From the NCBI GenBank assembly GCA_024653485.1, contig JANLFY010000009.1, forward strand, positions 62,001 to 126,000: a stretch of DNA of 64,000 nt, read 5' to 3'. The position numbers were made by a program, and so were the translations under genes. Below the pieces are notes generated by a model that saw only the letters and a list, made by a program, of their open reading frames with translations, did not search any database and was not told the DNA's origin. The stretch comes from Bacillota bacterium. Its GTDB lineage: Bacteria; Bacillota; SHA-98; UBA4971. Below, piece after piece: positions 39,496 through 64,000 of the stretch; position 1 is the stretch's first letter, and each line of letters opens with the position of its first letter.

Positions 39496-39588
39496 AGAGG
39501 CCTGAGGGGCGGACGAGCAGTGGCGCGCGGGTATGCGCAACCACGTCAGGCGCAAAGTTGACGGAAACACGTTTGGGGGATTGCAGAC

Positions 39589-41982: not shown

Positions 41983-42735
41983 TCAGCTCATCCGGCCGCA
42001 GACCGGACAGTTGGGGTCGCGCGCGGCGACCACCTCTCGCCATGCCATCGCGAGCCCATCAAACAGAAGCAGCCGCCCGACGAGAGGTTGTCCCAGCCCC
42101 AAGATCACCTTGATTGCCTCAAGGGCCTCGATGCTGCCTATCACACCCGGGACCGCCCCCATGATCCCAGCCTCGCGGCACGAAGGCACCGCCCCCGGAG
42201 GAGGGGGTTGCGGGAACACACACCGGTAGCAGGGGCCTTGCCCGGGGATGACGGTCAGCACCATGCCGTCGAATCTCATCACGCCCGCCTCGACCAGTGG
42301 CTTGCGAGCCTCCACGCACGCGTCGTTCACGAAGTACCTGGTCTCGAGGTTGTCCACGGCATCCACGACCACATCGTATGGCTCAATGAGCGCGGCCGCG
42401 TTCTTGTCAGTGACAGCCATCCGATGCGGCACCACGTGGACCCCGGGGTTGAGCCGCGCCAGCGCTCGTCTCGCCGACTCCACCTTTGGGAGGCCCAGCT
42501 CGTCAACACCATGCAGAATCTGCCTTTGCAGGTTGGACAGTTCCACCGCGTCTGAATCCACCAGTCCGAGAGTCCCCACTCCCGCGGCGGCGAGGTACAT
42601 GGCCACCGGCGATCCAAGGCCGCCCGTCCCCACCACGAGCACCTTGGCCGCGTGCAGCTTCGCTTGGCCCGCCTCCCCTACCTCGGGCATCACAAGCTGC
42701 CTGGAATAGCGCATCCTCTCCTCGCTTGTGAGCAT
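41983..42735 (-). CDS. moeB: MoeB/ThiF family adenylyltransferase
   Basis: 250 residues, full-length E1-like enzyme. RYSRQLVMPEVGEAGQAKL at the start, the ATP loop VLVVGTGGLGSPVAMYLAAAGVG, LSNLQRQILHG, DAVDNLETRYFVNDAC, and the zinc-binding pairs CYRCVFP and CPVCG are all present. It adenylates the C-terminal glycine of a MoaD/ThiS-type protein for sulfur transfer. In this window the partner is probably the MoaD-like protein at 58.3 kb, serving molybdopterin or tungstopterin synthesis for the oxidoreductases here. It lacks a C-terminal rhodanese domain. Confidence 0.92.
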   Translation of the reverse strand: MLTSEERMRYSRQLVMPEVGEAGQAKLHAAKVLVVGTGGLGSPVAMYLAAAGVGTLGLVDSDAVELSNLQRQILHGVDELGLPKVESARRALARLNPGVHVVPHRMAVTDKNAAALIEPYDVVVDAVDNLETRYFVNDACVEARKPLVEAGVMRFDGMVLTVIPGQGPCYRCVFPQPPPPGAVPSCREAGIMGAVPGVIGSIEALEAIKVILGLGQPLVGRLLLFDGLAMAWREVVAARDPNCPVCGRMS

Positions 42736-42999: not shown

Positions 43000-44526
43000 T
43001 CACGAGCAACCCGCTCTCGCCAAGACCCGCCGAAGCGCTCTCGTTGCCTCACGTAGTACTTCATTTTCGTCAAGAGACAGGAGTCTCCTCCCGTACATCA
43101 AGACACGCCCGTCCACTATGGTCGTGTCCACGTCTGAAGCGTTGGCTTCGTACACCACCCGCGACACCACGTCCACACCCTCTCCTGGAGCCGCATGAGG
43201 CGCTTCGAGGTCGAGCACCACGACGTCGGCTCGCTTTCCCGGCTCTATGCTGCCAATCTCGTGTTCCATGCCCATGGCCCGTGCCCCACCGATCGTCGCC
43301 ATCTCGAGCACAGTCTGAGCCGGCATGGCGGCGGGCCCCAGACGGACCTTCTGTATGAGAGCGGCATGGCGCATCTCCTGGAACACGTCGAGGTTGTTGT
43401 TGCACGGCGCGCCGTCGGCGCCTATGGACACGGACACTCCCATGTCGAGCATCTCAGGCACTTTCGCGATCCCCGAAGCGAGTTTCAGGTTCGACGACGG
43501 GCAGTGCACGACCTTCGTGCCGGAATCGCGCAGGATCGCCATTTCCTCGTCGTCCAGCCAGATGCAGTGAGCGAGCACGAGGTTCGGCCCGGTGAGTCCC
43601 AACTCGCGCAGGCATACCAGGTTCCTCATGCCTCTGTCTCGCCAAACGACCTCTATCTCGCCGCGGTTCTCCGACGCGTGCGTGTGCACGAGGACCCCCG
43701 CCTCCTTCGCCATGTCGCGCACGCGCACGAGGAGCCTATCCGAACACGATACCACGAACCTCGGTGCGAAGGCGTAGCGTATCCTGCCGTCATCGTGCAT
43801 GTGCCACCGATCGAGAAGGGCCTCGCTTTCGCGGAGAGAGTCCTCGGTGGATTCCATGAGGCTCGACGGTACGTCCTTGCCCCAATCCATCATGACTTTT
43901 CCGGACGCGGCACGGATGCCGGACGAGTCGATCGCCCAAAACGCGCTCTCAGTGTGGTGAACGGTCTCCATGTCGATGACGGACGTGGTCCCGCCTTTCA
44001 CGAGCTCCGCAATGCCGAGCATGGCAGACCAATACACGCTCTCCTCATCGTGAGCGCCTTCCAACGGCCATATGCGCTTCTTCAGCCAGTCCAGGAGCTC
44101 GAGGTCGTCAGCCTGTCCCCTGAAGAGGGTCTGGCAGAGGTGCACGTGCGCCTGGACGAACCCCGGAAGCACAACCTTTCCGTACGCGTCTATCACTATG
44201 TCCACGTCATGTCTGTGAGCCCCGGTTGGAAGCACGTGAACCTCCGCACCCATCGCCTCGCCGTCGTCCGCGAAGCGCTGCATCGCGTCCTGCCGTGCCC
44301 ACGCTGGTTCAACGTCCCCCCCTCGAGGGCTCGTGCCTCCCTGAAGCGCGTCACCCACCCATTGCACTCTCTCAAAGCCGAGGCGCTTCATGCTTGCTGA
44401 CGAGGAGCCCTCGCGCGTGACTTGGGCTATGCGGTGCCCATCTATGAGGACGTCAGCGCAGTCAAGCACTTCGCGCTCTCGGTTCATGGTCACAACGGTT
44501 CCGCCGCGAATGAGGATCTTCGCCAC
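43000..44526 (-). CDS. Amidohydrolase, 5'-deoxyadenosine/SAH deaminase-like, with N-terminal insertion
   Basis: 508 residues against about 430-440 for this subfamily. The extra part (roughly residues 42-108: REGSSSASMKRLGFERVQWV through AHRHDVDIVI) interrupts the N-terminal beta-sandwich. The TIM-barrel motifs are intact: metal-binding HVHLCQTLFRGQADDLELLD, HTHASEN, AHCIWLDDEEM and IGADGAPCNNNLDVFQEMR. That pattern fits deaminases of 5'-deoxyadenosine, S-adenosylhomocysteine or methylthioadenosine and related chlorohydrolases. GTG start abuts the AOR stop codon, so it is the last gene of hydA-fdx-AOR and shares their purine riboswitch, which suits a purine-nucleoside deaminase. Confidence 0.85.
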   Translation of the reverse strand: MAKILIRGGTVVTMNREREVLDCADVLIDGHRIAQVTREGSSSASMKRLGFERVQWVGDALQGGTSPRGGDVEPAWARQDAMQRFADDGEAMGAEVHVLPTGAHRHDVDIVIDAYGKVVLPGFVQAHVHLCQTLFRGQADDLELLDWLKKRIWPLEGAHDEESVYWSAMLGIAELVKGGTTSVIDMETVHHTESAFWAIDSSGIRAASGKVMMDWGKDVPSSLMESTEDSLRESEALLDRWHMHDDGRIRYAFAPRFVVSCSDRLLVRVRDMAKEAGVLVHTHASENRGEIEVVWRDRGMRNLVCLRELGLTGPNLVLAHCIWLDDEEMAILRDSGTKVVHCPSSNLKLASGIAKVPEMLDMGVSVSIGADGAPCNNNLDVFQEMRHAALIQKVRLGPAAMPAQTVLEMATIGGARAMGMEHEIGSIEPGKRADVVVLDLEAPHAAPGEGVDVVSRVVYEANASDVDTTIVDGRVLMYGRRLLSLDENEVLREATRALRRVLARAGCS

Positions 44527-46365
44527 CTACGCCACTCCCTTCTCCTCTATTCCGAGTTCCTCGAGCTTCTCGCGGGTGGGAACGCCGTCTTTGGTCCAGC
44601 CTCGCTCGGAGTAGTACTCGGGAAGCAGCTCCCCAAGATTGACCGTAACTCCTTTCGCCGGCCCCCCGGGGAGGCCTTCCTCTAGGAACCGCCTCGGAAG
44701 AGTGTCATCGCGCGGCGTCATGCCGCACCTTAGATTGAACGCCCTTTCCGTATTGACTATCCTCTCACCTATCGATAGGAGCTCGGCCTCGGAGTGCTGT
44801 CGCCCGGTCGCGAATGTCAGGAGATCCGCCACATCCCGGGGCAGGATGGCATATGTCGCGAACGTGCAGTACTTGCATATCTCCGCAGAGTCGCACACGG
44901 CGCCATAGTTCTCATGCCATATTACCATGCCCACCTTGCCCTTTTCCGTGTACGGGTTGACGCAATCGGGGGTTCCGAACCAACGAATCCCCTCCTCCCT
45001 CGTCTTGCTCAGGAGCTCAAAGTTCGGAAGAGCCCGCAGGTGGTCGCCGCCTCTGCTCGCCACGGCCTCGCCGAGAGCGAATCCTTTGCCTGTTCGCACA
45101 TCAAACGCCGGAAGCTCGAGCCCCTTCACGTGGAGAGCGAACCCTTCGCTCCCGGGAATCTCGGAGGACATCGCCTTGACGCCCTTCGCCAACAGCGCCC
45201 CTACGCCGTCGCGACGGGCGATCTTGTGGAGGCACTCGATAACGAAGTCCGCATCGCCCCACTCGTACTCCTCATCGATAAGACCGCGTTGAGAGCACTC
45301 CATGAGGAACGCGATGCTCGTGCCTGCGGAGATCGTGTCGATCCCATAGTCGTTGGCGAGCTGATTGGCCTTGAGGATCGCGTCGAGTGAGCCCACGCCC
45401 ACTCTGCTTCCAAGCGTGACCATTGTCTCGTACTCCGGGCCCATGTTCTCGCATTCGTACGGCCCGCTCGGAACGCGAGCATAGTTCTTGCAGTGGAGTA
45501 TGCACGAGAAACACGCTTTCGAAGCGAGTTTGTATGTATCTTGGTACACGTGGCTCGAGATCTCATCGTAACGATCAAACAAGCCGAGCTGCGCGTTCTT
45601 CGTGGATAGACCCCCGCTCGCCTGGGCGATGTCCACGAGGATGAGCGTTCCGTACTCGGAGAAGTCAGCGTAGGTCGGATCCGCCATGAGCTTCGTGTGA
45701 CACTCGCGGACCTTCGCCAGGAACCTCTCGTCGTCAGCCACGGGGATGTCTCCTGATCCACGCACCGCGACGGCCTTCAGGTTCTTCGACCCCATCACTG
45801 CTCCGACTCCGGTGCGCCCCGCGGCGTTGTGGCCCGCTGCCATGATGTTCGCGTAGGGGACCAGGTTCTCACCCGCCTGGCCTATCGCGATGACCTTGAT
45901 GTCCTTCCCATGCGTGTCTTCAAGGAGTCTTGTGGTGTCGAACACGCCTCGTCCCCAGAGGTGCGACGCGTCGCGCAGCTCCACATAATCGTCTTCGATG
46001 AATAGGTACACGGGACGCTTCGCCTTTCCGCGGATTATCACGGCGTCGTACCCCGCGAAGCGCAGCTCGGGACCAAAATGCCCCCCGGAGTTGGCGTCCC
46101 CGAGGAGCCCTGTGAGCGGCGAGCGGCATCCAACGGTGAACCTACCAGACGAGGGGGAGAGCGTTCCGTCGAGCGGACCTGTCGCGATGGTTAGGACGTT
46201 CTCGGGGGATAGGGGGTCGACATCAGCACCGACGAGATCATAGAGGACTTTGGACGTGAACCCGCGGCCTCCCAGGTACCCTGACCGCCACTCCTCGGGC
46301 ACCCTTGACTTGCGCGCGCAGCCGCGAGTGAGATCCACCCAGACGAGCCTTTCCACATGCGACAC
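44527..46365 (-). CDS. aor: Aldehyde:ferredoxin oxidoreductase family protein (tungstopterin)
   Basis: 612 residues, typical AOR. N-terminal domain VERLVWVDLTRG, LGGRGFTSKVLYDL, GPLDGTLSPSSGRFTVGCRSPLTG and GRTGVGAVMGSKNLKAVAVRG; the cluster ligands in CFSCILHCKNY (C-x2-C-x3-C) with a distal Cys in CVNPYTE or the following region; and the pterin-binding helical domains (DYGIDTISAGTSIAFLMECS). It oxidises aldehydes to acids, reducing ferredoxin, or runs in reverse. GTG start with GAGGTGA upstream. The adjacent polyferredoxin and [FeFe] hydrogenase look like its electron route. Substrate unknown. Confidence 0.93.
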   Translation of the reverse strand: MSHVERLVWVDLTRGCARKSRVPEEWRSGYLGGRGFTSKVLYDLVGADVDPLSPENVLTIATGPLDGTLSPSSGRFTVGCRSPLTGLLGDANSGGHFGPELRFAGYDAVIIRGKAKRPVYLFIEDDYVELRDASHLWGRGVFDTTRLLEDTHGKDIKVIAIGQAGENLVPYANIMAAGHNAAGRTGVGAVMGSKNLKAVAVRGSGDIPVADDERFLAKVRECHTKLMADPTYADFSEYGTLILVDIAQASGGLSTKNAQLGLFDRYDEISSHVYQDTYKLASKACFSCILHCKNYARVPSGPYECENMGPEYETMVTLGSRVGVGSLDAILKANQLANDYGIDTISAGTSIAFLMECSQRGLIDEEYEWGDADFVIECLHKIARRDGVGALLAKGVKAMSSEIPGSEGFALHVKGLELPAFDVRTGKGFALGEAVASRGGDHLRALPNFELLSKTREEGIRWFGTPDCVNPYTEKGKVGMVIWHENYGAVCDSAEICKYCTFATYAILPRDVADLLTFATGRQHSEAELLSIGERIVNTERAFNLRCGMTPRDDTLPRRFLEEGLPGGPAKGVTVNLGELLPEYYSERGWTKDGVPTREKLEELGIEEKGVA

Positions 46366-46371
46366 GCGCCG

Positions 46372-46761
46372 TCACCTCGCTCTCAGGGCCAGGGCCCCTG
46401 TGGTGCAGAACCTCACGCACATGGGGTCACCGTGGCACAAGTCGCAAATGAGCACAGATCCGTCGAATACGCTTATGCCACCGGACGGACACGAAGCGAC
46501 GCAGTCTCCACATAGGTTGCACGCCGCCTCGTTCACGAATACCTCACCGTCGTCCCACTCGAGCGCCCGCCTCTTGCATGCCGCAGTGCACGGATGCTCC
46601 TCGCAGTGGTCGCAAACCCGGATCTCCTCACCGCTCCCTCGCCTGAGAACGTGTATGCGCGCCCGTCTCGGGTTGAACACGCCAAAGTGCCCGATGGAGC
46701 AGGCAAGCTCGCAGTTTCTGCACCCAGTGCACTTCGCCGGGTCGAACGACCGGATGTCCAT
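46372..46761 (-). CDS. Polyferredoxin, four 4Fe-4S cluster type
   Basis: About 129 residues from ATG at 46761 (GGGGGG 6 bases upstream); starts at 46806 or 46818 are also possible and would overlap hydA. There are four Cys groups: CTGCRNCELACSIGHFG, CDHCEEHPCTAAC, CNLCGDCVASCPSGGIS and CDLCHGDPMCVRFC. This is the HycB/DMSO-reductase electron-transfer subunit pattern. It lies between hydA and the AOR gene with 6-bp spacing and is the obvious carrier between them. Confidence 0.9.
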   Translation of the reverse strand: MDIRSFDPAKCTGCRNCELACSIGHFGVFNPRRARIHVLRRGSGEEIRVCDHCEEHPCTAACKRRALEWDDGEVFVNEAACNLCGDCVASCPSGGISVFDGSVLICDLCHGDPMCVRFCTTGALALRAR

Positions 46762-46807
46762 GTCGTTCCCCCCAACCTGGACGCCAACGCCCGCACCTAC
46801 TTCCATC

Positions 46808-48715
46808 TCACCGCGCACCTCCCCGCGCGCGACCTACTGCGCTAGTGCCACCGTCATTCGCCCCGAGCCTCGCTGAGGCCCGAGGTCCCCGTCCCGAGCC
46901 TGCGCGGAGCGTCTGAGCGCCGAGCCGAACCGGATCGTGCAGGAGCTCCTTGGCGCGCGGCCCGCCGGGCTCGCCCAGGAACCGCCGGTAGATCTCCACC
47001 ACGACCGGGTTCCGACGAGGGTTTCTTTCTGTGGTCGCCCCATCGATGGCGCGAAGCGCGGCACCCCGCATCTGTGCGAGCATGCAGTCTCCGTCCTCCC
47101 GTTCCACCGCAATCGGTTGCCCGCCGCCGCCCACGCACCCGCCAGGGCATGCCATGACTTCCACGAAGTCGTAAGGCCGCTTCCCCGCCGCCACGTCGTC
47201 TAGCACGTTCCTCGCCTCGGCCAGGCCCTGGATCACCGCCACACGCAGGATCAGGCGACCCAGGGTCACCGTGGCCGCGATCACACCCGGTCCCGGAAGG
47301 CGGCCTATGGCGCTCCCATCTTCGAGCCCCACCTCGAGCTCCACGCCCAGCTCGTCGGCAAGCGCCCTGAGCGCCGCTTCCGCGACGCCTCCAGTCGCGC
47401 CGAATATCGTCCCCGCTCCGCTTGCGCTTCCCAGCGGTGCATCGAACCCGCTTTCCTCCAGCGACTCCACGTCCATCTCCGCCGCTTGGATCAAGCGGAC
47501 CAGCTCGCGCGTGGTGAGGACCGAATCGACGTCGCGTAGCACGCCTCGCGCGCTTCGCTCCGTCATAGCCTCGAACTTCTTCGCGGTGCATGGCATCAGC
47601 GACACGACGTGCACGTCCTCTGGGGCCGCGCCGTCCGTCTCTTGCAGCACGGTCTTGGCGACGGCGCCAGTCATCATGTGAGGCGACTTGCACGTCGAAA
47701 GGTGCGAGACCAGGCTCGGATACTCGTTCTCCACGAACTTCACCCACGCCGGACAGCACGACGTGAACATGGGAACCTTCCCCCCGGTCTCGAGGCGTTG
47801 CCTGAGCTCATGCGCCTCCTCGACCGCGGTGAGGTCCGCCCCTAATGCCGTATCGAACACCTTGTCAAAACCCAGCTTCCGGAGAACGGCAACCATTAGC
47901 CCGGTCGACACCGTTCCCGCGGGCTTGCCCCATGCCTCGGCGATCGTCGCCCTGAGTGCGGGCGCCGTCTGGGCCACCGTGACGACACGGTGGTTCGCAA
48001 GCCAGCGCCTCACTCGCACTAGCTGGGATTTCTCGGCAAGAGCCCCGGTGGGACACACCGCGACGCATTGCCCGCACTCTACGCACGTGGTGTCGCACGC
48101 CATGTCCTCAAACGCCAGCGCGCGGCACTCCACCCAATCCTCACCGAGGATCGCCCGAGGCCCGGCTCGCTCGACTGCGCTCCTGGCGCCATCGACTTCG
48201 GTGGCCAGGGAGGGGTACGGAGTCGCGCCGTGCATCTTCATGCACGCGGCGACGCACCTTCCGCACATCACGCACTTGTTGGGGTCGCGCACTATCGCGA
48301 GGCTCGTTCTGTCCACCGCAAGTCTGCGTCGCGTCACCGCGAGCCTTCGCGTTCGCACCCCGAGTTCGTCGCCGAGCCTCTTGAGCTCGCAGTACGCCCT
48401 CCTCTCGCACACGAGGCATTCCCTGGGATGCTGAGCAAAGAGGAACGACACCACCTCGCGACGCCTCGCCGTCACCTTCGCGCTCGCCGTGTGAATGACC
48501 ATCCCCGGCTCCACGACATGGTCGCACGCGGTCACGAGATCCTCCCTGCCCTCCACTTCGACCACGCATACTCCGCACGCTCGCGCCCAGCTCCGCCCCA
48601 ACCACGGATGGTAACACAGCGCCGGGACCCGCGTCCCCGCGTGCCTAGCCGCATCCAGGATGGTCGTCCCTTCGGGAACCCAGCACGAATGACCGTCCAC
48701 CACGACTTCCGGCAT
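46808..48715 (-). CDS. hydA: [FeFe] hydrogenase large subunit, modular (CpI-like)
   Basis: 635 residues from ATG at 48715 (GGGAGGTGAG upstream). Modules: N-terminal [2Fe-2S] (C34, C47, C50, C64), His-Cys3 4Fe-4S (H96-PREC-x2-C-x5-C), two 4Fe-4S (CVMCGRCVAAC about 148-158; CVECGQCVAVC about 211-221), then the H-cluster domain. All H-cluster motifs are intact: L1 FTSCCPAW (C320/C321), L2 MPCTAKKFE (C376) and L3 VMACPGGCVGGGGQP (C523, C527). It should evolve or take up H2 with ferredoxin. No HydB/HydC flavin subunits are adjacent; instead a polyferredoxin and AOR follow. The last 35 residues are an Arg/Gly-rich extension. Confidence 0.95.
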   Translation of the reverse strand: MPEVVVDGHSCWVPEGTTILDAARHAGTRVPALCYHPWLGRSWARACGVCVVEVEGREDLVTACDHVVEPGMVIHTASAKVTARRREVVSFLFAQHPRECLVCERRAYCELKRLGDELGVRTRRLAVTRRRLAVDRTSLAIVRDPNKCVMCGRCVAACMKMHGATPYPSLATEVDGARSAVERAGPRAILGEDWVECRALAFEDMACDTTCVECGQCVAVCPTGALAEKSQLVRVRRWLANHRVVTVAQTAPALRATIAEAWGKPAGTVSTGLMVAVLRKLGFDKVFDTALGADLTAVEEAHELRQRLETGGKVPMFTSCCPAWVKFVENEYPSLVSHLSTCKSPHMMTGAVAKTVLQETDGAAPEDVHVVSLMPCTAKKFEAMTERSARGVLRDVDSVLTTRELVRLIQAAEMDVESLEESGFDAPLGSASGAGTIFGATGGVAEAALRALADELGVELEVGLEDGSAIGRLPGPGVIAATVTLGRLILRVAVIQGLAEARNVLDDVAAGKRPYDFVEVMACPGGCVGGGGQPIAVEREDGDCMLAQMRGAALRAIDGATTERNPRRNPVVVEIYRRFLGEPGGPRAKELLHDPVRLGAQTLRAGSGRGPRASARLGANDGGTSAVGRARGGAR

Positions 48716-48921
48716 CTCTCTCACCTCCCGTCCCCCATGCTCCCCTTGTCGTCTTGCCGCTCCCACCTAGTCCTGACCGTACCTCGAGGATACATGCGAC
48801 CTCACGTGGGCCCCGTGAGAGCGGGCTCCTCTTTGCACGTAGCCGCCACCACAGCAAGGAGGCCGTCCCGACCCGTCGGGAGCGCCGGGATCGAACGAAC
48901 GAACGACCACCAGACGCCCCC
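48716..48921 (-). other. hydA leader between riboswitch aptamer and start codon
   Basis: About 205 bases forming the expression platform. It has a CCCGAC/GTCGGG hairpin near 48865-48880, then CGGCCTCC, which could pair with the GGGAGG ribosome binding site at 48718-48728. No open frame of interest. Confidence 0.5.
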
Positions 48922-48990
48922 CTCATAGCCAGGTCGGTTGCGGCCTCCTGGTAGAAACGCCTGAACCCAAGATTATCAGGTCTATATGAG
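48922..48990 (-). promoter_or_regulatory. Purine riboswitch aptamer upstream of hydA
   Basis: A 69-nt minus-strand element fits the purine aptamer throughout. P1 is CTCATA/TATGAG (6 bp), P2 CCTGA/TCAGG and P3 CCAGG/CCTGG. The junction J2/3 is CGTTTCTACC (invariant UUUCUA), L2 is ATCTTGG and L3 CCGCAAC (able to form the GG-CC loop contact), and J3/1 is CTATG with C at the ligand-selecting position, as in guanine-type switches. J1/2 (TAGA) and L3 depart from the common consensus. It begins about 205 bases before the hydA start. No U-tract terminator is seen downstream, so control of translation is possible. Ligand assignment to guanine/hypoxanthine is inference. Confidence 0.82.
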
Positions 48991-49144
48991 AGCAGGCCTT
49001 CACCGGAATGTAGTTGCTCTGTTACGAATATTCGGCGTAGTCCGCAGCACTCCTCCTATTGACGAGGGCCGTTGTCGCGAGCTCCGGGGCGCCGCCTGTC
49101 GGCGCCGCGCACCCGCAGCCTGCTGGCGGCGCCTCATCCGCGGC

Positions 49145-50542
49145 TCATCCGCGGGCGGCGCGGATCATCGCGTCGAGCTCCGACACGATCTCGCGCTGCG
49201 CTATCCAGTACTCCTGGCTCCTCTGGGCGTTGAGCTCCTCGACCGTCTTCCCCTGTTGCTCGACCCACGTGTAGTACTTGAGGTTGTGCCAGCGCTTTCT
49301 GTTCTCCACCGTGCCTTCGACGATGTGGTCCAGTTTAGCGGAAAGGAATATGGCCTCGTGCCTGCTCGCCGCCTTCACGCGGTCCATCGCGCCGCACCTT
49401 TCGGACAGTGCCTTCATGACCGATCTGTACCTGTCGATGGCGTCGGTTGCGACGGTGACTATGTTGTCGTCAGGGCCGAATTCGTAGAACTTCGCCGTCT
49501 TGATGGCGCCGAGGAGGTTGCACACCCCCGAGATGCCGATGATGCTCGATAGTTTCTCAGCTGCCTCCTCATCGATTCCCAGCTCACCAGCGAGGTACTC
49601 GAGTCCGACGGGGTCTGTCAGCAGCTGGAGGCCTTTCTTGCATTCCAAATCGTCTATGCACATCATGGCGTCCATGTTGTTCACGTTGTGTATCCATGTG
49701 ACGTGCTTGTCGCCGATGCCCTGGATGTCGTGAGCGCCGTATCCGTTGTAAGACAACGTCGGGCATTGGACCGGCTCGAGGCCGACGATGCGCGTCTCAT
49801 AGAACACCTCCTTGAGGCGGTCCCCGGCGGCGATCGTTCCCGCGGATCCCATTGCAGACACGAACGCAGCCGTCCTTCCGTTCCCCACGCCCTTTTGCGC
49901 AAGCTCCCCCACGACCTCGACAATGGTGTTGCCGGTCACGTAGTAGTGGAACCTGTAGTTGCCCATCTCCTCGAACTGGTTCAGGACGCGCACGCGTGCG
50001 GGGTCGGCCTTGGCCAACTCCTTGCACTTGTCGTAGATCTCCTTGACGTTGCTCTCGCATCCCGGGGTCGCGATGGCCCGCGCGCCGTAACGCGCTATCC
50101 GTTCGAACCTCTCGGAGCTCATCTGCTCTGGAAGGATGACCAGCGAATCGTATCCCATCCTCGGTCCGACCCAAGCCCCCCCGATTCCGTAGTTCCCCGT
50201 AGACGGCCAGACAAGGGTGTGCTCTCCGGGGCGGATCTCCCCGCGAAGCTGCTTCTCGACGGCCACGGAGTAGGTCGCTCCCACTTTGTGGCTGCCGGTG
50301 GGGAAGTCCTTGCCGTACAGCATGATGACGTTGGGCTCTACCCCGGTCAGCTCTTTCGGCACGACGAAGTACCTCACCGTGTTGTCGGGACCTTTCCAAG
50401 TGATGTTGTACAGGTTGACGGGATCGAGCTCGTCCACACCGAGCGCCTTGACTGCACGCTCCCTCACTCGAGGGTCCACGATCTCCGGGTGAAGCATCTC
50501 CTCGAAGGTAGGACCGTAAACCAGCTCACGTGCCATAGGCAT
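49145..50542 (-). CDS. PLP-dependent fold-type II enzyme of unknown specificity
   Basis: 465 residues of the tryptophan synthase beta/cysteine synthase superfamily. The cofactor Lys is in FPTGSHKVGATYSV, followed by WPSTGNYGIGGAWVGPRMGY and the phosphate-binding region SAMGSAGTIAAGDRLKEVF. Catalysis is expected to be beta- or gamma-elimination, replacement or deamination. I do not recognise a characterised orthologue. It lies 12 bp downstream of ssnA in the molybdenum-hydroxylase operon, a position comparable to ygeX (diaminopropionate ammonia-lyase) in Escherichia coli, but the sequence differs. AAAGGTGAG precedes the ATG. Confidence 0.8.
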   Translation of the reverse strand: MPMARELVYGPTFEEMLHPEIVDPRVRERAVKALGVDELDPVNLYNITWKGPDNTVRYFVVPKELTGVEPNVIMLYGKDFPTGSHKVGATYSVAVEKQLRGEIRPGEHTLVWPSTGNYGIGGAWVGPRMGYDSLVILPEQMSSERFERIARYGARAIATPGCESNVKEIYDKCKELAKADPARVRVLNQFEEMGNYRFHYYVTGNTIVEVVGELAQKGVGNGRTAAFVSAMGSAGTIAAGDRLKEVFYETRIVGLEPVQCPTLSYNGYGAHDIQGIGDKHVTWIHNVNNMDAMMCIDDLECKKGLQLLTDPVGLEYLAGELGIDEEAAEKLSSIIGISGVCNLLGAIKTAKFYEFGPDDNIVTVATDAIDRYRSVMKALSERCGAMDRVKAASRHEAIFLSAKLDHIVEGTVENRKRWHNLKYYTWVEQQGKTVEELNAQRSQEYWIAQREIVSELDAMIRAARG

Positions 50543-50554
50543 CTCACCTTTCCC

Positions 50555-51883
50555 TCAGAACCTCTCCCATACCTTCCTCGCAAGCTCGCGCGAGCGCGCC
50601 ACGATCCTCTCCTCGTCCAATCCAGTCAGCTTTCTACCGCGCATCAGGACCCGCCCTGCCACGATCGTCGTATCCACGAGGCCGCCGCTCATGCCGAACA
50701 AGACGTGACTATAGTAGTTGCGCGAGTCGAGCGGCGTCGGAGGACGGTAGTCCACGATTATGGCGTCCCCCGCGGCCCCTGCTTCGAATGTGCCCACCTC
50801 CAGCCCGAAAACGCGCCGGGCTATCTCCCTGTTGTTCGCGAATGCCATGGCGGGCACCTCGGCCCAGGCGGCGCTGGGATTCCCCTCCGCCAGCTTGTGG
50901 AGCACGTTCGCTACCTTGACCGACTCGAACATGTCGGCGGTGTACCCATCGGTGCCGAGCCCGACCCTCACGCCCTTGCCCATCATGCGTGCGACCGGCG
51001 CCACCCCGACGGCGTTCCCCATGTTCGACTCGGGATTGTGCACCACGTTGACGCCGCGCTCCCTCAAGATGTCCATCTCTCTCTCGTTTACGTGGACGCA
51101 GTGAGCCGCGATGGTTTTCGGCCCGAGTATCCCGAACGCGTCGAGCCGCTCCACGACGCGCTTCCCCGACTTTGCCAAGGCGTCCTCCACGTCCTCCGGA
51201 CCTTCGGCCACATGCACGTGGAACCCCACGTCAAGTCCCTCGGCGGCTTCGCGGCACTTCGCAAGCGTGGCGTCAGACAGCGTCATCTGGGCATGCAGGC
51301 CGAACGAGGCCGCGAGACGCCCATCTCGTTCACCACGGCACCTCCGGATGAACCTCGCATTCTCACGGATGCCCTGGTCAGCGATGTCCTCGCCGTCCCT
51401 GTCGGAGACCTCGTACGAAAGGCAGGCTCTTATGCCCGCCTCTTCGACGGCTCGCGCTACCTCGTCGAGGATGCCTGGAACCGCCATGGGGCTCGCGTGG
51501 TGGTCCAGGATGGTCGTAGTGCCGCAGCGAACGCAGTCCATGAGAGGAACAAGCGCGCTCACGTACACATCCTCCGGTCCTAGGGCCTTGTCCAGCCTCC
51601 ACCACAAGCGTTCCAGGATCTGCATGAAAGTGCGCGGCGGTGCGTCCTTCAGCGCCATACCCCGCGCGAACGTGCTGTACAGGTGCATGTGGCCGTTTAT
51701 CATGCCGGGCATGATCACCCTGCCTCCGGCGTCCACAAACTCGCAGCCCGGATAGTGTTCCCGTATCTCGCTCGTCACTCCCACCTCGCGGATGACGCCG
51801 TCCTCGATGGCGATCGCCCCGTCGTCGAGGACCCGTCCTCCGCTGTCAAGGGTGATCAGAAAGCCTCCTCCGATCACGATCAT
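50555..51883 (-). CDS. ssnA: Aminohydrolase SsnA
   Basis: 442 residues of the amidohydrolase superfamily matching SsnA. GHMHLYSTFARGMALKDAPP (metal HxH), ILERLWWRLDKALGPEDVYV, GTTTILDHHASP, HVHVAEG, AAHCVHVNEREM and GLGTDGYTADMFESVK are all present. SsnA genes accompany molybdenum hydroxylases of the xdhD/ygfK type in purine-utilising gut bacteria, and that is the context here. The exact substrate (an aminated heterocycle) is unproven. GAGGAGGGG precedes the start. Confidence 0.92.
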   Translation of the reverse strand: MIVIGGGFLITLDSGGRVLDDGAIAIEDGVIREVGVTSEIREHYPGCEFVDAGGRVIMPGMINGHMHLYSTFARGMALKDAPPRTFMQILERLWWRLDKALGPEDVYVSALVPLMDCVRCGTTTILDHHASPMAVPGILDEVARAVEEAGIRACLSYEVSDRDGEDIADQGIRENARFIRRCRGERDGRLAASFGLHAQMTLSDATLAKCREAAEGLDVGFHVHVAEGPEDVEDALAKSGKRVVERLDAFGILGPKTIAAHCVHVNEREMDILRERGVNVVHNPESNMGNAVGVAPVARMMGKGVRVGLGTDGYTADMFESVKVANVLHKLAEGNPSAAWAEVPAMAFANNREIARRVFGLEVGTFEAGAAGDAIIVDYRPPTPLDSRNYYSHVLFGMSGGLVDTTIVAGRVLMRGRKLTGLDEERIVARSRELARKVWERF

Positions 51884-51968
51884 CGCAGCCCCTCCTCGTG
51901 CCGCCTTCAGCTCTCGTGCCCTTCCCCGGTTCCCCGGAGCTTCCCGAGACCCGTCAGACGACGTCGCG

Positions 51969-52547
51969 CTACTTGTGTCTATGCTCGTCAGAAGATCCCC
52001 CGAGGTCTTCGGTGACTGCGGGCCCAGATGACTCGAGACGCGAGCGGTCGAAACGCTCTTGGCTCATCCGTCTTGCCGCGTCCTCGATTGCAGAGATTAT
52101 CTGATGATACCCCGTGCACCGGCAGAGGTTTCCCGAGATCGCGCGGGCGATCTCCTCCCTAGTGGGATGGGGATTCTCGCGGATGAGTGCCGCGGCGGAC
52201 ATGAGCATGCCGGGTGTGCAGAACCCGCACTGCACCGCGGTGTGTTCGATGAACGCCTCCTGCAAGGGATGGAGCCTCCCGTCCTTCGCGAGTCCCTCCA
52301 CCGTCTCGACCTCTCGCCCTTCCGCCTGCATCGCCGGAACGAGGCAGGAGTTCACCGCCCTTCCGTCCAGAAGCACTGTGCACGCTCCGCATTCTCCGAT
52401 GCCGCACCCTTCCTTGGCGCCCGTGAGCCTAAGACCCTCCCGCAGAACGTCGATGAGCCTGTCGCCAGCCGAGACCTCGACTTCGACCATGTTGCCGTTG
52501 ACCTTGAATGACATCGTGGCTTTGGCTCCCGGCTCGAGCTGCTTCAT
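51969..52547 (-). CDS. xdhC-like FeS: Molybdenum hydroxylase [2Fe-2S] subunit
   Basis: 192 residues from ATG at 52547 (GGGGGTGG 7 bases upstream). The plant-ferredoxin-type cluster ligands are GCGIGECGACTVLLDG...NSC and the second cluster is in QCGFCTPGML...NLCRCTGYHQI; all eight Cys are present. It passes electrons from the molybdopterin subunit to FAD. It overlaps the FAD-subunit gene by 4 bases. A 35-residue polar tail ends EDLGGSSDEHRHK. It is the only [2Fe-2S] subunit visible for two molybdopterin and two FAD subunits. Confidence 0.95.
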   Translation of the reverse strand: MKQLEPGAKATMSFKVNGNMVEVEVSAGDRLIDVLREGLRLTGAKEGCGIGECGACTVLLDGRAVNSCLVPAMQAEGREVETVEGLAKDGRLHPLQEAFIEHTAVQCGFCTPGMLMSAAALIRENPHPTREEIARAISGNLCRCTGYHQIISAIEDAARRMSQERFDRSRLESSGPAVTEDLGGSSDEHRHK

Positions 52548-53431
52548 TCCGCGTCCACCCCCAAAGCCTTCCACAGCGCCCGCCTGGTGATCGCCTCAAA
52601 GGCTGGCTCTTTGTATTCCGTGGACCAGCGCACACCGGTTCTCCTCACCATCTCCTCGGCCGCCTCCCGCGCCGCCGCGGCCACAACTCGCTCGTCGGGG
52701 AGCCTATCGAGAAGGATCGCCTCGGCTGAGGGCAGCCGCGCCGGCATGGGAAGGCATGCCCCCGGGGCTATCGCCGCCCTCTCCACACGCCCGGCGCGGT
52801 CGCGCTCGATGACCGCTGCGCAGCTCATGCGAGCGATGGCCAACGCCTCCCGCCTCCCCAGCTTCACGAAGGCGCACCCACAGGCCGGAGGGAGCGCGTC
52901 GAAATACACCTCCGTCAGTATCTCTCCCGGCAGCGCACGATTCTCATAGGGCTCGCCGAACAGGTCGGTGATTGGGATGTCGCGCGTACCGCTGACATCG
53001 GAAAGCCTCGCCCTGGCCGAGAGGGCCACGAGGGCTGGTATCGTGTCCGCGGCAGGCGAGGCGTTCATGACGTTCCCGCCGATCGTGCCTCGCGCGCGAA
53101 TCTGCGGCGATCCCACGCTGGCGCATGCTTCGGCGAGAAGGGGAGCGCCCTTCTGAATGATGGGACTCCGTGCGATCTCTACATGTGTCGTGAGCGCCCC
53201 GATCCTGATGACGCCGCAGTCGCTCGTTACGCCTGAAAGCCCGGGGATTCTCGAGATGTCGACCAGCCAGTGCGGATCATCGTCCGGTCCACGCCAGCCA
53301 CGCCGCCTCAGCCGGACGAGTACGTCGGTGCCCCCTGCGACGACCTCGGCTCGCCCCGCGTGCTCTCGCAGGAACGCGCTGGCTTCCGTCAAGGTATCCG
53401 GCACCGCGTAACCCAATCGCGCGGTTGTCAT
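52544..53431 (-). CDS. Molybdenum hydroxylase FAD-binding subunit (copy 2)
   Basis: 295 residues of the CoxM/XdhB family. FAD loops EVVAGGTDVLVRLRRRGW and CASVGSPQIRARGTIGGNVMNASPAADTIPALVALSA are present, then the C-terminal CO-dehydrogenase-flavoprotein domain (FVKLGRREALAIARMSCAAVIE). It receives electrons from the FeS subunit. ATG overlaps the stop of the upstream molybdopterin gene (ATGA) and its own stop overlaps the FeS gene start, forming a tight Mo-FAD-FeS trio. Confidence 0.94.
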   Translation of the reverse strand: MTTARLGYAVPDTLTEASAFLREHAGRAEVVAGGTDVLVRLRRRGWRGPDDDPHWLVDISRIPGLSGVTSDCGVIRIGALTTHVEIARSPIIQKGAPLLAEACASVGSPQIRARGTIGGNVMNASPAADTIPALVALSARARLSDVSGTRDIPITDLFGEPYENRALPGEILTEVYFDALPPACGCAFVKLGRREALAIARMSCAAVIERDRAGRVERAAIAPGACLPMPARLPSAEAILLDRLPDERVVAAAAREAAEEMVRRTGVRWSTEYKEPAFEAITRRALWKALGVDAE

Positions 53432-55797
53432 CTTCTTTCACTTCCTCTTTCTCCCCGGCCAGACTTGAGCGACCGACCCAGGAGGACTCTCTCGAGGTCC
53501 AACGGAAGCTCGCGGATCCTCCTCCCGCTTGCGTGGTAGACCGCGTTCGCTATGGCCGGTGCGAGGAGCTCGCATGTGGGTTCACCTATGGTCTTGGCCC
53601 CGTATGGTCCGTAAGAGTCCGGATTCTCGACCACTATCGGGACTACCTCAGGCATGTCCATGGACGTGGCGATGAGGTATTCGTCGAAATTGCTCGTCCT
53701 CGTGACGCCCCTTGCCATCTCGACCTCCTCGAGCAAGCCGTACCCCAGTCCCATCGCCACGCCCCCGTATATCTGGCCTTCCACCGTCGCGGGGTTTATG
53801 GCCCTGCCTACATCGTGGGCAGCGGCAACCTTCAGCACTTTGACCTTGCCCGTCTCGGTGTCCACCTCCACCTCAACGGCCTGGCACCCGTATACGTAGG
53901 TGAAGTACGCCCTTCCCTGACCGCGCTCTTCGTTCCACCAGACCTTCGGGCCCTTGTACCATCCAAACGCGGCCATGAGCTCGCCCCGGTCGTACGCGGC
54001 CTTCGCAACGTGGCTGAAGCTCACGTTTCGCGCCGGATCGTCTTCCGCGAATATCCTCCCCTCGGAGGCAACTAGCGCCTCGGATGACGTGCCGAGCAGC
54101 TCTCCGGCAACCGCCAGGAGCGTATGCCGGACCTTCCGGGCCGCGTCGCGCACGGCGTTCCCACCCATGGTGGTGCTCCGCGACGCGACCGTGGGCCCCC
54201 CGTCGGGGATGAGAGAGGTGTCGGTATCAACGAACACTATCGATTCGAGGTTGCACCCGAGCTCCTCCGCTGCGATCTGGCTGAATATCGTGCGAAGCCC
54301 TTGACCGTTTTCCGCAAGGCCGGCGTACACGTATACGCTGCCGTCCTGCTGCACGGAGACGATGGCGCCCGTGGCGTCCACGCCTTCACCGCCGAGGCTT
54401 ACGCCGCGGTAACTCGCAGCAAGCCCGACGCCACGTACAGTTCTCGTTCCCGCCTCGCGCGCCGCACCAGCGCGGGACGTCCTCTTCTCACGGTACCCGA
54501 TGGCGTCCGCAGCCTTCCGGATTACCTCCGCGAGGCTCACCACGTGATCGTCAAGAGCCTGCCCGGTCGCTGTGACAGACCCCTGCCGAAACCCGTTCTT
54601 GAGCCGAAGGTCCAGAGGATCCATGCCCAGCTCCGCAGCGAGCTCGTCCATGAGCGACTCGTGGGCGAAAGTGATCTGCGGGCTTCCGAATCCCCTCATG
54701 GCTCCGGTGTATGTGTTGTTCGTGTACACGCCGTACACGTCGGTCTTCACGTTCGGAACCTCGTAAGGCCCCGTCGCCTGGACGACCGAACGCCACGTCA
54801 CGAACGGCGTCATGGAGGCGTATGCCCCCGCGTCTGCCGTGATGCTGATCTCCATCGCCCGCAGCTCGCCATCTCTTGTGGCTCCCGCCTTGTACCTGAG
54901 CACGTAAGGGTGCCTCTTGTACCCTTCCATGATCGATTCTTCGCGGCTGTTCACCATCTTCACAGGCCGCCTCGTCTTGAGCGCCGCCAGCGCAACCCTC
55001 GCGCACATGCAGGACATGGTGTCGTCCTTTCCCCCGAACGATCCTCCCATCGCGCACTGCACGATGCGCACCTTGTTGAGACTGACGCCCAGGACCTCCG
55101 CTACCACGCGCCTCGCGGTGAACGGATTCTGCACAGACCCGTACACCGTGACCGACCCCTCGTTCGGGTTGGGCACCGCCACCGCCGCTTCGGGTTCGAT
55201 GTATGCGTGCTCGATGAACTGGGTGCGGTATTCGTGCTCGATCACGATGTCGGACGCGGCAAAGCCCGCGTCCACGTCGCCCTTGCGGACCTTGTGATGG
55301 TTGACGATGTTGCCGGGCGTATCATCGTGCAGGACGGGCGCACTCTCCGCCATGGCTTCCTCAGGGGAAAACACAGCAGGGAGTTCCTCGTAGTCCACCC
55401 GCACGAGCCCGAGCGCCATCTCGGCCGCGTCGACGGTATCGGCCACGACAACCGCCACGCCATCGCCCAGGTAGCGCGTCTTGTCGAAGGCGAGCACAGG
55501 CATGTCGCGCCGCACGGGCCCGAACGTCTTGGCTCCCGGAATGTCCTCGTGAGTGAGGACAGTGACTACTCCCGGGACCTTCAAAGCTTCCCTTGCGTCT
55601 ATCCGCACCAGCCTCGCATGCGGGAACTTCGCTCTCAATACCTTCGCATGGAGCATCCCATCGAAGTACAGGTCGGCCCCAAACTTGGCCCTCCCGGTGA
55701 CCTTCTCAACGGCGTCCACGCGCCTCGCACGGCGGTGCACAACGCAAAATCCGTTCTCGCGGCCGCCGTCGGCGGTTTCATCTCGAGCCATCGTCAC
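53428..55797 (-). CDS. Molybdenum hydroxylase molybdopterin-binding subunit (copy 2)
   Basis: About 789 residues from GTG at 55797 (GGAAAGGAGG 10 bases upstream); the frame is open to 55839. Xanthine dehydrogenase/aldehyde oxidase fold: AEKVTGRAKFGADLYF-like N-terminus (VEKVTGRAKFGADLYFDGML), GGSFGGKDDTMS, the MGD/MCD-binding AMRGFGSPQITFAHES, VVASRSTTMGG-type region and the active-site Glu in GAKTIGEPTCELLAPAIANA. It hydroxylates an N-heterocycle or aldehyde. Forms a unit with the FAD and FeS subunits that follow. Confidence 0.93.
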   Translation of the reverse strand: MTMARDETADGGRENGFCVVHRRARRVDAVEKVTGRAKFGADLYFDGMLHAKVLRAKFPHARLVRIDAREALKVPGVVTVLTHEDIPGAKTFGPVRRDMPVLAFDKTRYLGDGVAVVVADTVDAAEMALGLVRVDYEELPAVFSPEEAMAESAPVLHDDTPGNIVNHHKVRKGDVDAGFAASDIVIEHEYRTQFIEHAYIEPEAAVAVPNPNEGSVTVYGSVQNPFTARRVVAEVLGVSLNKVRIVQCAMGGSFGGKDDTMSCMCARVALAALKTRRPVKMVNSREESIMEGYKRHPYVLRYKAGATRDGELRAMEISITADAGAYASMTPFVTWRSVVQATGPYEVPNVKTDVYGVYTNNTYTGAMRGFGSPQITFAHESLMDELAAELGMDPLDLRLKNGFRQGSVTATGQALDDHVVSLAEVIRKAADAIGYREKRTSRAGAAREAGTRTVRGVGLAASYRGVSLGGEGVDATGAIVSVQQDGSVYVYAGLAENGQGLRTIFSQIAAEELGCNLESIVFVDTDTSLIPDGGPTVASRSTTMGGNAVRDAARKVRHTLLAVAGELLGTSSEALVASEGRIFAEDDPARNVSFSHVAKAAYDRGELMAAFGWYKGPKVWWNEERGQGRAYFTYVYGCQAVEVEVDTETGKVKVLKVAAAHDVGRAINPATVEGQIYGGVAMGLGYGLLEEVEMARGVTRTSNFDEYLIATSMDMPEVVPIVVENPDSYGPYGAKTIGEPTCELLAPAIANAVYHASGRRIRELPLDLERVLLGRSLKSGRGERGSERR

Positions 55798-55839
55798 GCC
55801 TAGCAGGCCTCCTTTCCGACGCCGTGCTTGATCATCCAC

Positions 55840-58179
55840 TCAACCGACCACGACGGTCGCCGCTCTTTCCCCGGCTTCCAGGGCGTGCTTCTTGAGAGCC
55901 GTGTACACCCTCTCCGGGGTTGCCGGTATGTGTGTCACCCATATGCCGGTCGCATCGTGGATGGCGTTGGTTATGGCGGGGGTGATGGGCACGCACACCG
56001 CCTCGCCTATCCCCTTCGCTCCGAAAGGACCCGACGGCTCTGGCTCCTCAACTATCACTGTCTCTATGTCAGGCGCGTCCATGGACGTGGGTATTATGTA
56101 CGTGGAGAAGTTCGGTGTCTTGGTGATCCCCCGTTCGATGATGGTGTCCTCCATGAGGGCGTATCCCATTCCCATGACCACGCCGCCCTCCGACTGCGCC
56201 TCAATGCCAGCTGGGTTTATTGCCTTACCCGGGTTGGGAATGGACACGGCCCGAAGGACCTCGACTTCCCCGGTGAGCGTATTCACCTCAACGAGGGCGA
56301 GCTGGGTGATGTATGAGTAGATCAAATGTGGAAGGCCGAAATACCCTTCCAGGCCCCGATCTGCCACCGGCCAGATGAAGTGCCCATCAGCCCTCACCTT
56401 CTTGCCCTGGCCTTCGGCCATGCGGGCGATCTCGCTGAACGACAGTCGCCCGCGCCCGCCGGAGGACACGGCGTCCCGGTCCGAACACGAGCTCGCTTCC
56501 ACGCCTCCCGGCCCGAAAGCGATGGCGTCCTTGGGTACTCGCAGCGCCTCCGAAGCAATGTCCGCCAGCTGGTCACGTATCTTGGCGGCCGCGCATCGGA
56601 TCGCGTTGCCGCCGGTGTACACCGATCGCGACGCCGTCGACGTGCCACAGTCCAGAGTGTGCCTTGAGTCCCCCGAAACGACTACGATATCCTCCAGAGA
56701 GCAGCCCAGGCTGTCCGCGGCCATCTGGGCGAAGGCCGTGGTATTGCCCTGACCTATCTCGGGACAGCTCACTCCCACGGCGAACCGCCCATCGGACAGC
56801 AGATCGATGGTGGCGGCCCCGTAGTCCGGCAACCCGACTCCGAGCCCGCACCCATGAAGCTCCGTGGCCAACCCGACGCCCCGTCTCTTGTAGGGCGCGG
56901 AAGGTCGCGCCTTCAGCTCCTCGCGACGTTTCCATAGCTCACACTGTGACGCGGCCCCGAGGGTGGCCAGAGCCCCCACAGACGCCGTCATGGTGTGGCC
57001 AAGCGCCGCCACGTCTCCGCGGCGGACTGCGTTCTTGCGCCGGAACTCGATCTTGTCCATGCCGAGCCGCTCGGCTATCATATCGACCTGGGTCTCCAAG
57101 GCGAAGGTGACTTGGTTCGCGCCGAAACCCCGGAACGCGCCGGCCAAGCCGTTATTGGTGTAAACGCAGAACCCCTCGAGCCTCACGTTGGGAACGCGGT
57201 AAGGCCCGCACGAATGCTCGATGGCAAGATTGACCACCGGACCTCCCAGGGACGCGTACGCCCCCGTGTCTGCGACCACCCGGACCTCGTTGGCAAGGAG
57301 CGTCCCGTCAGCCGCCGCCGCGGTCTTCATGCGGATCTTCATGGGATGGCGCTTCATGCCGGCGACCACCGATTCCTCGCGGGAAAGCACGATCTTCACG
57401 GGACGGCCGGTGCGAAGGGCAAGGAGAGCGAGGTAGATCTGAACGGTTATCTCATCCTTTCCCCCGAACGCGCCGCCCGCCGGGGTCGATACGACGTGGA
57501 TCTTCTTGGGGTTCATCCCGAGGGCGCGGGCTATCTGGAGCTGGTCCCTGAACGGATGTTGGCTTCCGCACCAAACCGTGATGTCACCATGCTCATCCAT
57601 CGCGGCGACCCCGCTCTCGGTCTCCATGAAAGCGTGCATCTGCCGGGGAGTGTAGTACGTGTTCTCCACCACCACCTCCGCCTCACGGAATGCGGTGTCC
57701 ACGTCCCCTCTTTCCACCTTGATGCGATGGTGGACGTTCCCTCCGTCATGCACTTTGGGCGACGATTCGAGCATCGCGTCCTCCGGGTCCTCAACCACCG
57801 GTAAGGGCTCGTACTCAACGCTGATGGCGCCTAGGGCCTCTCTCGCCTTCTCTTTGGAGACAGCGGCGACGAGAGCTATCGCGTCCCCCATGTAACGGAC
57901 CTTGTCGGAACAAAGCACGGGCTGGTCCGGAATGACGATTCCGAAGCCGTTCAGACCGGGCACGTCCCTGTGGGTCATCACGGTGACCACGCCTTCCATG
58001 GCTTCGGCCTTTGACGTGTCTATCCCTCTTATCAGAGCATGAGGATGCTCACTCCGAAGCACAGCTCCCCAAAGCATGTCGGGAAACGACAGGTCGGACA
58101 TGAACTTGAGCTTGCCAGTGACCTTGTCGAACGCGTCAATGCGGCTGACCCGGGCACCCACCCACTTCGGCTCGTTCAC
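55840..58179 (-). CDS. Molybdenum hydroxylase molybdopterin-binding subunit (copy 1)
   Basis: About 779 residues from GTG at 58179 (GGAGGG 6 bases upstream). Same fold as the copy below it, but clearly divergent. DAFDKVTGKLKFMSDLSFPD, GGAFGGKDEITVQIYLALLA, AFRGFGANQVTFALE, SASRSVYTGGNAIRCAA (in TASRSVYTGGNAI) and the active-site Glu in FGAKGIGEAVCVPITPAITN are all present. It ends two codons before the next gene's open frame. Its most likely FAD partner is the upstream copy at 58.5 kb; no dedicated [2Fe-2S] subunit is present. Confidence 0.93.
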   Translation of the reverse strand: MNEPKWVGARVSRIDAFDKVTGKLKFMSDLSFPDMLWGAVLRSEHPHALIRGIDTSKAEAMEGVVTVMTHRDVPGLNGFGIVIPDQPVLCSDKVRYMGDAIALVAAVSKEKAREALGAISVEYEPLPVVEDPEDAMLESSPKVHDGGNVHHRIKVERGDVDTAFREAEVVVENTYYTPRQMHAFMETESGVAAMDEHGDITVWCGSQHPFRDQLQIARALGMNPKKIHVVSTPAGGAFGGKDEITVQIYLALLALRTGRPVKIVLSREESVVAGMKRHPMKIRMKTAAAADGTLLANEVRVVADTGAYASLGGPVVNLAIEHSCGPYRVPNVRLEGFCVYTNNGLAGAFRGFGANQVTFALETQVDMIAERLGMDKIEFRRKNAVRRGDVAALGHTMTASVGALATLGAASQCELWKRREELKARPSAPYKRRGVGLATELHGCGLGVGLPDYGAATIDLLSDGRFAVGVSCPEIGQGNTTAFAQMAADSLGCSLEDIVVVSGDSRHTLDCGTSTASRSVYTGGNAIRCAAAKIRDQLADIASEALRVPKDAIAFGPGGVEASSCSDRDAVSSGGRGRLSFSEIARMAEGQGKKVRADGHFIWPVADRGLEGYFGLPHLIYSYITQLALVEVNTLTGEVEVLRAVSIPNPGKAINPAGIEAQSEGGVVMGMGYALMEDTIIERGITKTPNFSTYIIPTSMDAPDIETVIVEEPEPSGPFGAKGIGEAVCVPITPAITNAIHDATGIWVTHIPATPERVYTALKKHALEAGERAATVVVG

Positions 58180-58252
58180 ACGCGTCCCTCCTCGCAGAGC
58201 TCGGCATTCCCGTCCGTCGGCGCCCCGCTTTTTCACGACAACGCCCGTGTGG

Positions 58253-58480
58253 TCACCCGCCCCCCACCGGCGTGAGGATGTGCACAGCCGCGCCGTCGCT
58301 GAGCGGGGTTGCTTCATCTGCCCGCATCCCGTTCACGAGCACGATGATGTACACCCTATCTTCTATCCTCAGGCGATCCAGTAGGTCGCCAAGCGTGGCA
58401 CCCTCCTTGAGCTCCAGCTCGAACTTGTCTCTCTCCGCGTACCTGCGCATGGTGCCGAACAGAACGACGTTCACTTTCAT
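58253..58480 (-). CDS. MoaD/ThiS-like ubiquitin-fold sulfur carrier
   Basis: 75 residues from ATG at 58480 with GGGGAGG 10 bases upstream. MKVNVVLFGTMRRYAERD, ELKEGATLGDLLDRL and VNGMRADEATPLSDGAAV outline the beta-grasp fold, and the C-terminus is HILTPVGGG. The terminal Gly-Gly is adenylated by MoeB-type enzymes and thiocarboxylated for molybdopterin synthase; one extra Gly is present here. It overlaps the FAD-subunit gene and sits inside the hydroxylase operon, with a MoeB-like gene about 16 kb downstream. Confidence 0.87.
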   Translation of the reverse strand: MKVNVVLFGTMRRYAERDKFELELKEGATLGDLLDRLRIEDRVYIIVLVNGMRADEATPLSDGAAVHILTPVGGG

Positions 58481-63746: not shown

Positions 63747-63812
63747 CGTGACGTCTACCTCCCCTTCGGCATTGGCTCGCTGCCGCGCTCGACCAAGAAC
63801 CCGCAAGCTCTC

Positions 63813-64000
63813 TCACTCGCGTTTGTTCTTGACGTCGATCATCTCCGCCACAATTGCTACGGCGATCTCCTGAGCGGTCCGGGCGCTGATGTCGAGACCT
63901 ATGGGCGCGTGCACGAACGCCACGTCTTCTTGGGAAAACCCCTCTTTGAGCAGCGCCTCGAACGTCGCGCGCACTTTCGATCTACTCCCAATCATCCCGA
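63813..64000 (-). CDS. xdhC: XdhC/CoxF family molybdenum hydroxylase maturation protein (partial)
   Basis: The C-terminal 62 residues only; the gene runs past the window end. GMIGSRSKVRATFEALLKEG, then VHAPIGLDISARTAQEIAVA and IVAEMIDVKNKRE, is the conserved C-terminus of XdhC, which binds Moco, supports its sulfuration and inserts it into the hydroxylase. It is first of the visible catabolic operon, 66 bp upstream of preT. Confidence 0.88.
   Translation of the reverse strand, partial: GMIGSRSKVRATFEALLKEGFSQEDVAFVHAPIGLDISARTAQEIAVAIVAEMIDVKNKRE

Follow-up and report, generated by a model that had tools for sequence, protein, structure and literature searches.

What does a purine riboswitch control when the first gene behind it encodes a hydrogenase? 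The usual role of guanine riboswitches is to repress the uptake and biosynthesis of purines; the one described here appears to activate purine breakdown. The locus lies in a 64,000-nucleotide stretch of a contig from an uncultured anaerobic Bacillota bacterium (the window), and a preliminary description of it had proposed that the supply of purines may determine how much redox disposal through H2 is possible. In the interpretation favoured here, to which a probability of roughly 0.6 is assigned, a guanine-type riboswitch in a leader of about 300 nt acts as an ON switch for a purine-catabolic operon, with the ligand, the direction of switching, the termination of transcription and the flow of electrons predicted. 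The best reading of the sequence is that purine excess in the transition phase would turn on purine deamination together with an H2-linked redox module that serves purine breakdown.

Identification and conservation of the riboswitch

A cmscan search against Rfam matched the leader to the purine riboswitch family RF00167 at 46.5 bits, against a gathering cut-off of 37 (E-value 1.3e-4 when all families were run on the whole window, 1e-6 on the local stretch). No second RF00167 match occurs in the 3.0 Mb genome. The element is confirmed as a genuine purine riboswitch of this known class, in agreement with the core marks described earlier (the P1/P2/P3 junction and the GG/CC pairing of L2 with L3), although the aptamer measures 73 nt, from the 5' end of P1 at 48992 to its 3' end at 48920, and not 69 nt. 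P1 comprises eight pairs (48992-48985/48927-48920), and P2 comprises five (48980-48976/48964-48960), flanked by A.C and U.U. P3 has 4+2 pairs around a small mismatched internal loop (48950-48947/48933-48930, with the inner pairs 48945-48944/48937-48936), and the GG of L2 (48967-48966) pairs with the CC of L3 (48943-48942).

Table 1 Features of the riboswitch locus and its surroundings, in window coordinates
Feature	Position	Strand	Evidence or detail
ThiF/MoeB-like protein	41983..42735	-	PF00899; after the deaminase in both genera (synteny)
GuaD-like deaminase (predicted)	43000..44526	-	NF005557 (5'-deoxyadenosine deaminase) 673 bits, cut-off 522
Tungsten-type aldehyde:ferredoxin oxidoreductase (AOR, WorL)	44527..46365	-	PF02730, PF01314; PDB 1aor_A, 9mqx_D, 8c0z_A
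Four-[4Fe-4S] polyferredoxin, WorS/AorA and YgfS/YgfT type	46372..46818	-	PDB 8c0z_C, 9mqx_E, 6x6u_B
[FeFe] hydrogenase HydA, group A	46808..48715	-	TIGR02512 423.8 bits, cut-off 405.95
Candidate anti-aptamer element CGGCCTCCTT	48856..48865	-	Complementary to the P3 5' strand and L3 (AGGAGGCCG, part of CCAGGAGGCCGC)
Purine riboswitch match	48906..49009	-	RF00167
Aptamer proper	48920..48992	-	Rfam alignment and pair counts
Predicted sigma-H-type promoter	49030..49056	-	-35 GGAGGAGTG 49056-49048, 11-nt spacer, -10 GCCGAAT 49036-49030
Predicted reductive uric-acid cluster, near part	49145..60635	-	PALP, ssnA, two xdh sets, MoaD-like, PreA/UacX-like
Cluster continuation, YgfK/YgfT-like flavoprotein	62382..64000	-	Runs past the window edge

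The aptamer was found in each of the six genomes of the genus (g1) and in two of seven genomes of the sister genus (g2). The resulting eight-locus set (the window and L022 to L028, of which L022 and L023 belong to the sister genus) contains seven distinct sequences. All 21 pairs, including the two loop-loop pairs, are kept across the eight loci, with 100% of cells paired, compared with 24-50% when the columns were slid by one to three positions. Two P1 pairs are altered on both sides with pairing retained; taken alone this covariation is weak, being reached by 58 of 500 shuffles.

Ligand pocket

In guanine riboswitches U47 is one of the bases that contact the ligand. U22, U51 and C74 touch it likewise (PMC9295807), and all four are invariant in the eight loci (alignment columns T26, T53, T57 and C82). 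Since every ligand-contact base of guanine riboswitches is kept, a guanine-type ligand is likely. The adenine-type U at position 74 is absent, C74 being present in 8/8 loci, and neither the xanthine-II marks (U51G and a two-base J2/3 insertion) nor the guanine-II mark (a one-base J2/3 insertion, alongside most of the other xanthine-II-like changes) occurs in the clade. The preliminary description had doubted that plain guanine is the ligand because J1/2 and L3 depart from consensus. The doubt appears weak: these deviations and that at position 73 (A to G) all lie away from the ligand contacts, and G73 is also found in ordinary Bacillota purine riboswitches ahead of purine genes.

A change of ligand, for example to xanthine, 2'-deoxyguanosine or 5'-deoxyadenosine, would be consistent with the low family scores of the clade (43-49 bits, against 56-95 bits in other Bacillota), with an L2 two bases longer than consensus, with G at positions 24 and 73 and the mismatches in P3, and with the unusual target genes. 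Set against the four invariant contacts, the missing U51G and J2/3 insertions and the occurrence of G73 in ordinary family members, such a change is considered unlikely. The predicted guanine-type element shares with the guanine-I riboswitch (RF00167) the three-way junction, the loop-loop pairs and U22/U47/U51/C74, and differs from it in the longer L2 and the mismatched P3.

The conserved target of the riboswitch

In the six g1 genomes the aptamer precedes the genes for HydA, the ferredoxin, the AOR, the deaminase and ThiF, with hydA first. In the sister genus (G009 and G011, loci L022 and L023) it stands directly before the deaminase gene, and thiF comes next. No hydA intervenes there; only in g1 do genes for the hydrogenase, the four-cluster ferredoxin and the tungsten-type oxidoreductase lie in between. 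Deaminase orthologues (>70% identity) were found only in the eight riboswitch genomes and in G012, whose contig ends 80 nt upstream of the gene, before the leader region. The hydA orthologue (>66%) is confined to the genus. When 80 hydA loci were scanned with a purine model built for this analysis, aptamers were present at four, the four closest, and at none of the 76 more distant loci. The synteny in the sister genus, the distribution of the deaminase and the hydA scan together indicate that the riboswitch belongs to the deaminase, which is, judged by gene order, its conserved target. Either the redox genes were a later addition to the operon, or the sister genus has lost them.

The placement of the aptamer upstream of hydA, as first described, therefore holds as adjacency within the genus, where a search of relatives recovers it, but not as a statement about the target or about hydA loci elsewhere; as a general target the hydrogenase was rejected on the G009/G011 synteny and the scan. 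That the hydrogenase is nonetheless the true target, with purine levels setting the cell's capacity for H2-linked redox disposal, would explain why hydA comes first behind the aptamer in all six g1 genomes. This proposal is not borne out and is held to be quite improbable, because the g2 aptamers precede the deaminase gene without hydA and the 76 distant loci lack the aptamer. In addition, the genome encodes several further full-length HydA paralogues, so that the riboswitch operon does not represent the whole H2 capacity of the cell. One or two in-frame TGA codons, possibly encoding selenocysteine, were noted in HydA paralogues at G000:C3:248224-250014 and in relatives. The other purine riboswitches sampled stand mostly before purine synthesis genes, purine permeases and nucleoside-binding lipoproteins, as judged by eye from sequence.

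Gene products of the operon

The hydA-fdx-AOR-deaminase genes are tightly packed, and their order behind the aptamer, closing with the deaminase, is as first described. The longest hydA reading frame begins at 48766, and a likelier start is the ATG at 48715, preceded by GGGAGGTGA. Three H-cluster motifs can be read in HydA (TSCCPAW, MPCTAKKFE and CPGGCVGGGGQP), and HydF is encoded in the genome, so the hydrogenase can be matured. The ferredoxin-AOR pair has counterparts in tungsten enzymes of solved structure, namely the WorS/WorL and AorA/AorB pairs; among the proteins of the E. coli uric-acid cluster, the polyferredoxin is closest to YgfS (36%) and YgfT (35%).

The deaminase is predicted to be GuaD-like, although it passes the cut-off of an NCBIfam model named 5'-deoxyadenosine deaminase. 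Within the E. coli cluster it is closest to GuaD, with 32% identity (E 5e-55), and the CQT/PQS Gln, PRF and HTH..EN motifs are common to both. An insertion of ~65 residues near its N-terminus (about residues 48-105) varies in length within the genus and is absent in the sister genus. On the plus strand, the genes at 36405-40671 resemble, as judged by eye, those of a TctCAB-like tripartite tricarboxylate transporter with a tartrate/isocitrate-type dehydrogenase behind it.

The neighbouring uric-acid cluster

The genes upstream of the operon, on the same strand, are relatives of E. coli ssnA, xdhD, ygfM, ygeW, ygeY, hyuA, yqeA, yqeB and mocA, with those of yqeB, mocA, ygeW, ygeY, hyuA and yqeA situated beyond the window (locus L120). 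Identities to the E. coli proteins are 35% for SsnA, 28-31% for the XdhD type, 36% for HyuA, 38% for YgeW (or UacY) and 46% for YgeY, and the YgfK-or-UacX role is covered by a PreA/UacX-type enzyme. The diaminopropionate ammonia-lyase YgeX is matched weakly: the PALP protein aligns with it over 51 aa only, and a threonine-synthase-like protein shows 24% identity over 348 aa. By these homologies the genes in and past the window form a near-complete cluster for reductive uric-acid degradation, a pathway with a net four-electron reduction (PMC12507026). The neighbours had been described as an operon of purine-type molybdenum hydroxylases; the xdh genes are indeed there, but they belong to this cluster, so the riboswitch target is less out of place than was first thought.

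Relatives of ssnA, xdhD, hyuA, ygeW, ygeY, yqeA and uacX from the E. coli/C. difficile uric-acid cluster (PMC12507026) thus adjoin the window operon, while guaD and ygfS/ygfT, which lie in the same E. coli neighbourhood, have their counterparts inside it. Compared with the clusters described there, the window adds a hydrogenase, a tungsten oxidoreductase and an RNA control that is undescribed in that work. Counting against the favoured reading, G003 has its riboswitch operon separate from the uric-acid cluster, and its ssnA is split into two matches.

Predicted promoter and transcript start

Sigma-H promoters follow the consensus RnAGGAwWW, a spacer of 11-12 nt and RnnGAAT. The pattern RnAGGAWW-N12-RnnGAAT occurs 35-37 nt before P1 in 8/8 loci, exactly in six and with one mismatch in the window and in L026, and no sigma-70 promoter was found. 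SigH is encoded, far over the cut-off, in G000, G003 and G009. From this site the transcript would start ~30 nt ahead of P1, and the predicted start thus lies upstream of the aptamer, where the earlier interpretation needed it to be rather than downstream of 48922. The arrangement suggests expression of the operon in the transition phase and a combined purine and sigma-H input to the reductive uric-acid pathway. Genome-wide, 51 exact sigma-H-like sites were counted against none for the reversed pattern, an imperfect control in that reversed GAAT contains a stop codon; the counts would make it feasible to chart the sigma-H regulon of this uncultured lineage.

Expression platform and direction of switching

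An element of the form [GA][GA]C[CT]TCCT, complementary to the P3/L3 segment, lies 50-62 nt after P1 in every relative. Among 500 shuffles, just 1-4 matched the energy of the duplex between the two in L024-L028, against 50 in the window, the weakest case of the genus; in L022 and L023 the simple duplex is not significant against shuffles. Minimum-energy folds of the full-length leaders disrupt the aptamer in 8/8 loci, and enforcing it costs 5-19 kcal/mol. At least six T are found in the 12 bases after the element in six loci, against four in the window, where the element has no U-run behind it, and two in L026; a simple scan of the minus strand of the window detected no intrinsic terminator. 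The arm of the element varies mostly by one-sided changes, giving little covariation for the alternative helix.

These features suggest a genetic ON switch in which aptamer and terminator compete, a reading for which the window itself offers the weakest case. When guanine (or hypoxanthine or xanthine) is scarce, the segment near 48865-48856 would pair with P3/L3 and draw the 3' half of the aptamer into one long hairpin, followed in most relatives by a U-rich stretch, and transcription would stop. With purine bound, the aptamer would hold P1 and P3, the long hairpin would be blocked and the operon would be read. Masking of the ribosome-binding site is disfavoured, as the CCTCC element keeps its 50-62 nt to the aptamer while the distance to the start codon ranges from about 50 to 430 nt.

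Guanine-I riboswitches are mostly OFF switches (PMC9295807), and here too a bound aptamer might permit a downstream terminator, so that abundant guanine would silence the operon. In most loci a hairpin immediately behind P1 still folds when the aptamer is enforced; the one in L024, a separate hairpin that ends in UUUU, could form together with the aptamer. At the other loci this hairpin has no U-run; the U-rich stretch is instead found behind the aptamer-excluding hairpin, and closing purine catabolism amid plentiful purine makes little sense. An OFF switch is accordingly regarded as doubtful. The weaker element and missing U-run of the window might also mean that its riboswitch has decayed and lost its function in this species while being retained in relatives, which is very improbable given an almost unchanged aptamer, P1 changes that keep pairing and a promoter at its usual spacing.

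The ON direction is supported, by analogy, by a second, unrelated case: in L020, from another Bacillota genome (G057), a xanthine-dehydrogenase-type gene is preceded at 92 nt by a purine aptamer whose P3/J3-1/P1 3' strand becomes part of a hairpin that ends in UUUUU. The aptamer of L020:1501-1730 has an enlarged J3/1.

The adenine riboswitch of B. subtilis pbuE is an ON switch by aptamer-terminator competition, and that of V. vulnificus add has a deaminase gene as its target; the window element differs from both in having C74 instead of U74 and a GuaD-like deaminase as target. Xanthine-II and guanine-II riboswitches use the guanine-type scaffold as ON switches, the former controlling purine degradation genes (PMC9295807). 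The window element resembles them in scaffold and predicted ON use, without U51G or the J2/3 insertion. Guanine-I targets are genes of uptake and synthesis, in contrast to the deaminase with hydrogenase and tungsten enzyme seen here, and the locus represents a known riboswitch class in an unusual and probably catabolic ON use over a hydrogenase-tungsten enzyme module.

A possible electron source for uric-acid reduction

An RNA sensor is hereby tied to the recently solved reductive uric-acid pathway, along with a hydrogenase and a tungsten enzyme. Formate is the known co-substrate of this pathway in E. coli and Enterococcus, and reduced ferredoxin has been suggested as the donor for UacX types (PMC12507026). 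The ancestral target would be the deaminase, which would turn guanine into xanthine or carry out a similar purine deamination. Placed between aptamer and deaminase in the genus, the hydrogenase-polyferredoxin-tungsten oxidoreductase module would most likely exchange electrons among H2, ferredoxin and the adjacent pathway, in the position held in E. coli by formate and the YgfS/YgfT-type proteins. This role, suggested by gene order, offers a testable answer to the question of the electron source without formate. The stronger proposal is that one H2-driven or H2-evolving complex, made up of HydA, the tungsten subunit and the four-cluster polyferredoxin, feeds or itself carries out the reduction of purine or uric acid, replaces formate as electron source and is induced by a guanine-sensing RNA in the transition phase; this is speculative and unlikely to hold in full.

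A literature search, covering mainly open-access papers, found no paper combining a riboswitch, 'FeFe hydrogenase' and purine. WorLS and AorAB (PMC13328260, PMC9295118) combine a large tungsten subunit with a four-cluster polyferredoxin, as does the window, where the partner gene differs in encoding an [FeFe] hydrogenase. Under 'hydrogenase', the five-class WOR scheme contained no such arrangement. The genes hydA and worS-worL at 44527-48715 may thus encode a hydrogenase-linked tungsten oxidoreductase outside the five published WOR classes.
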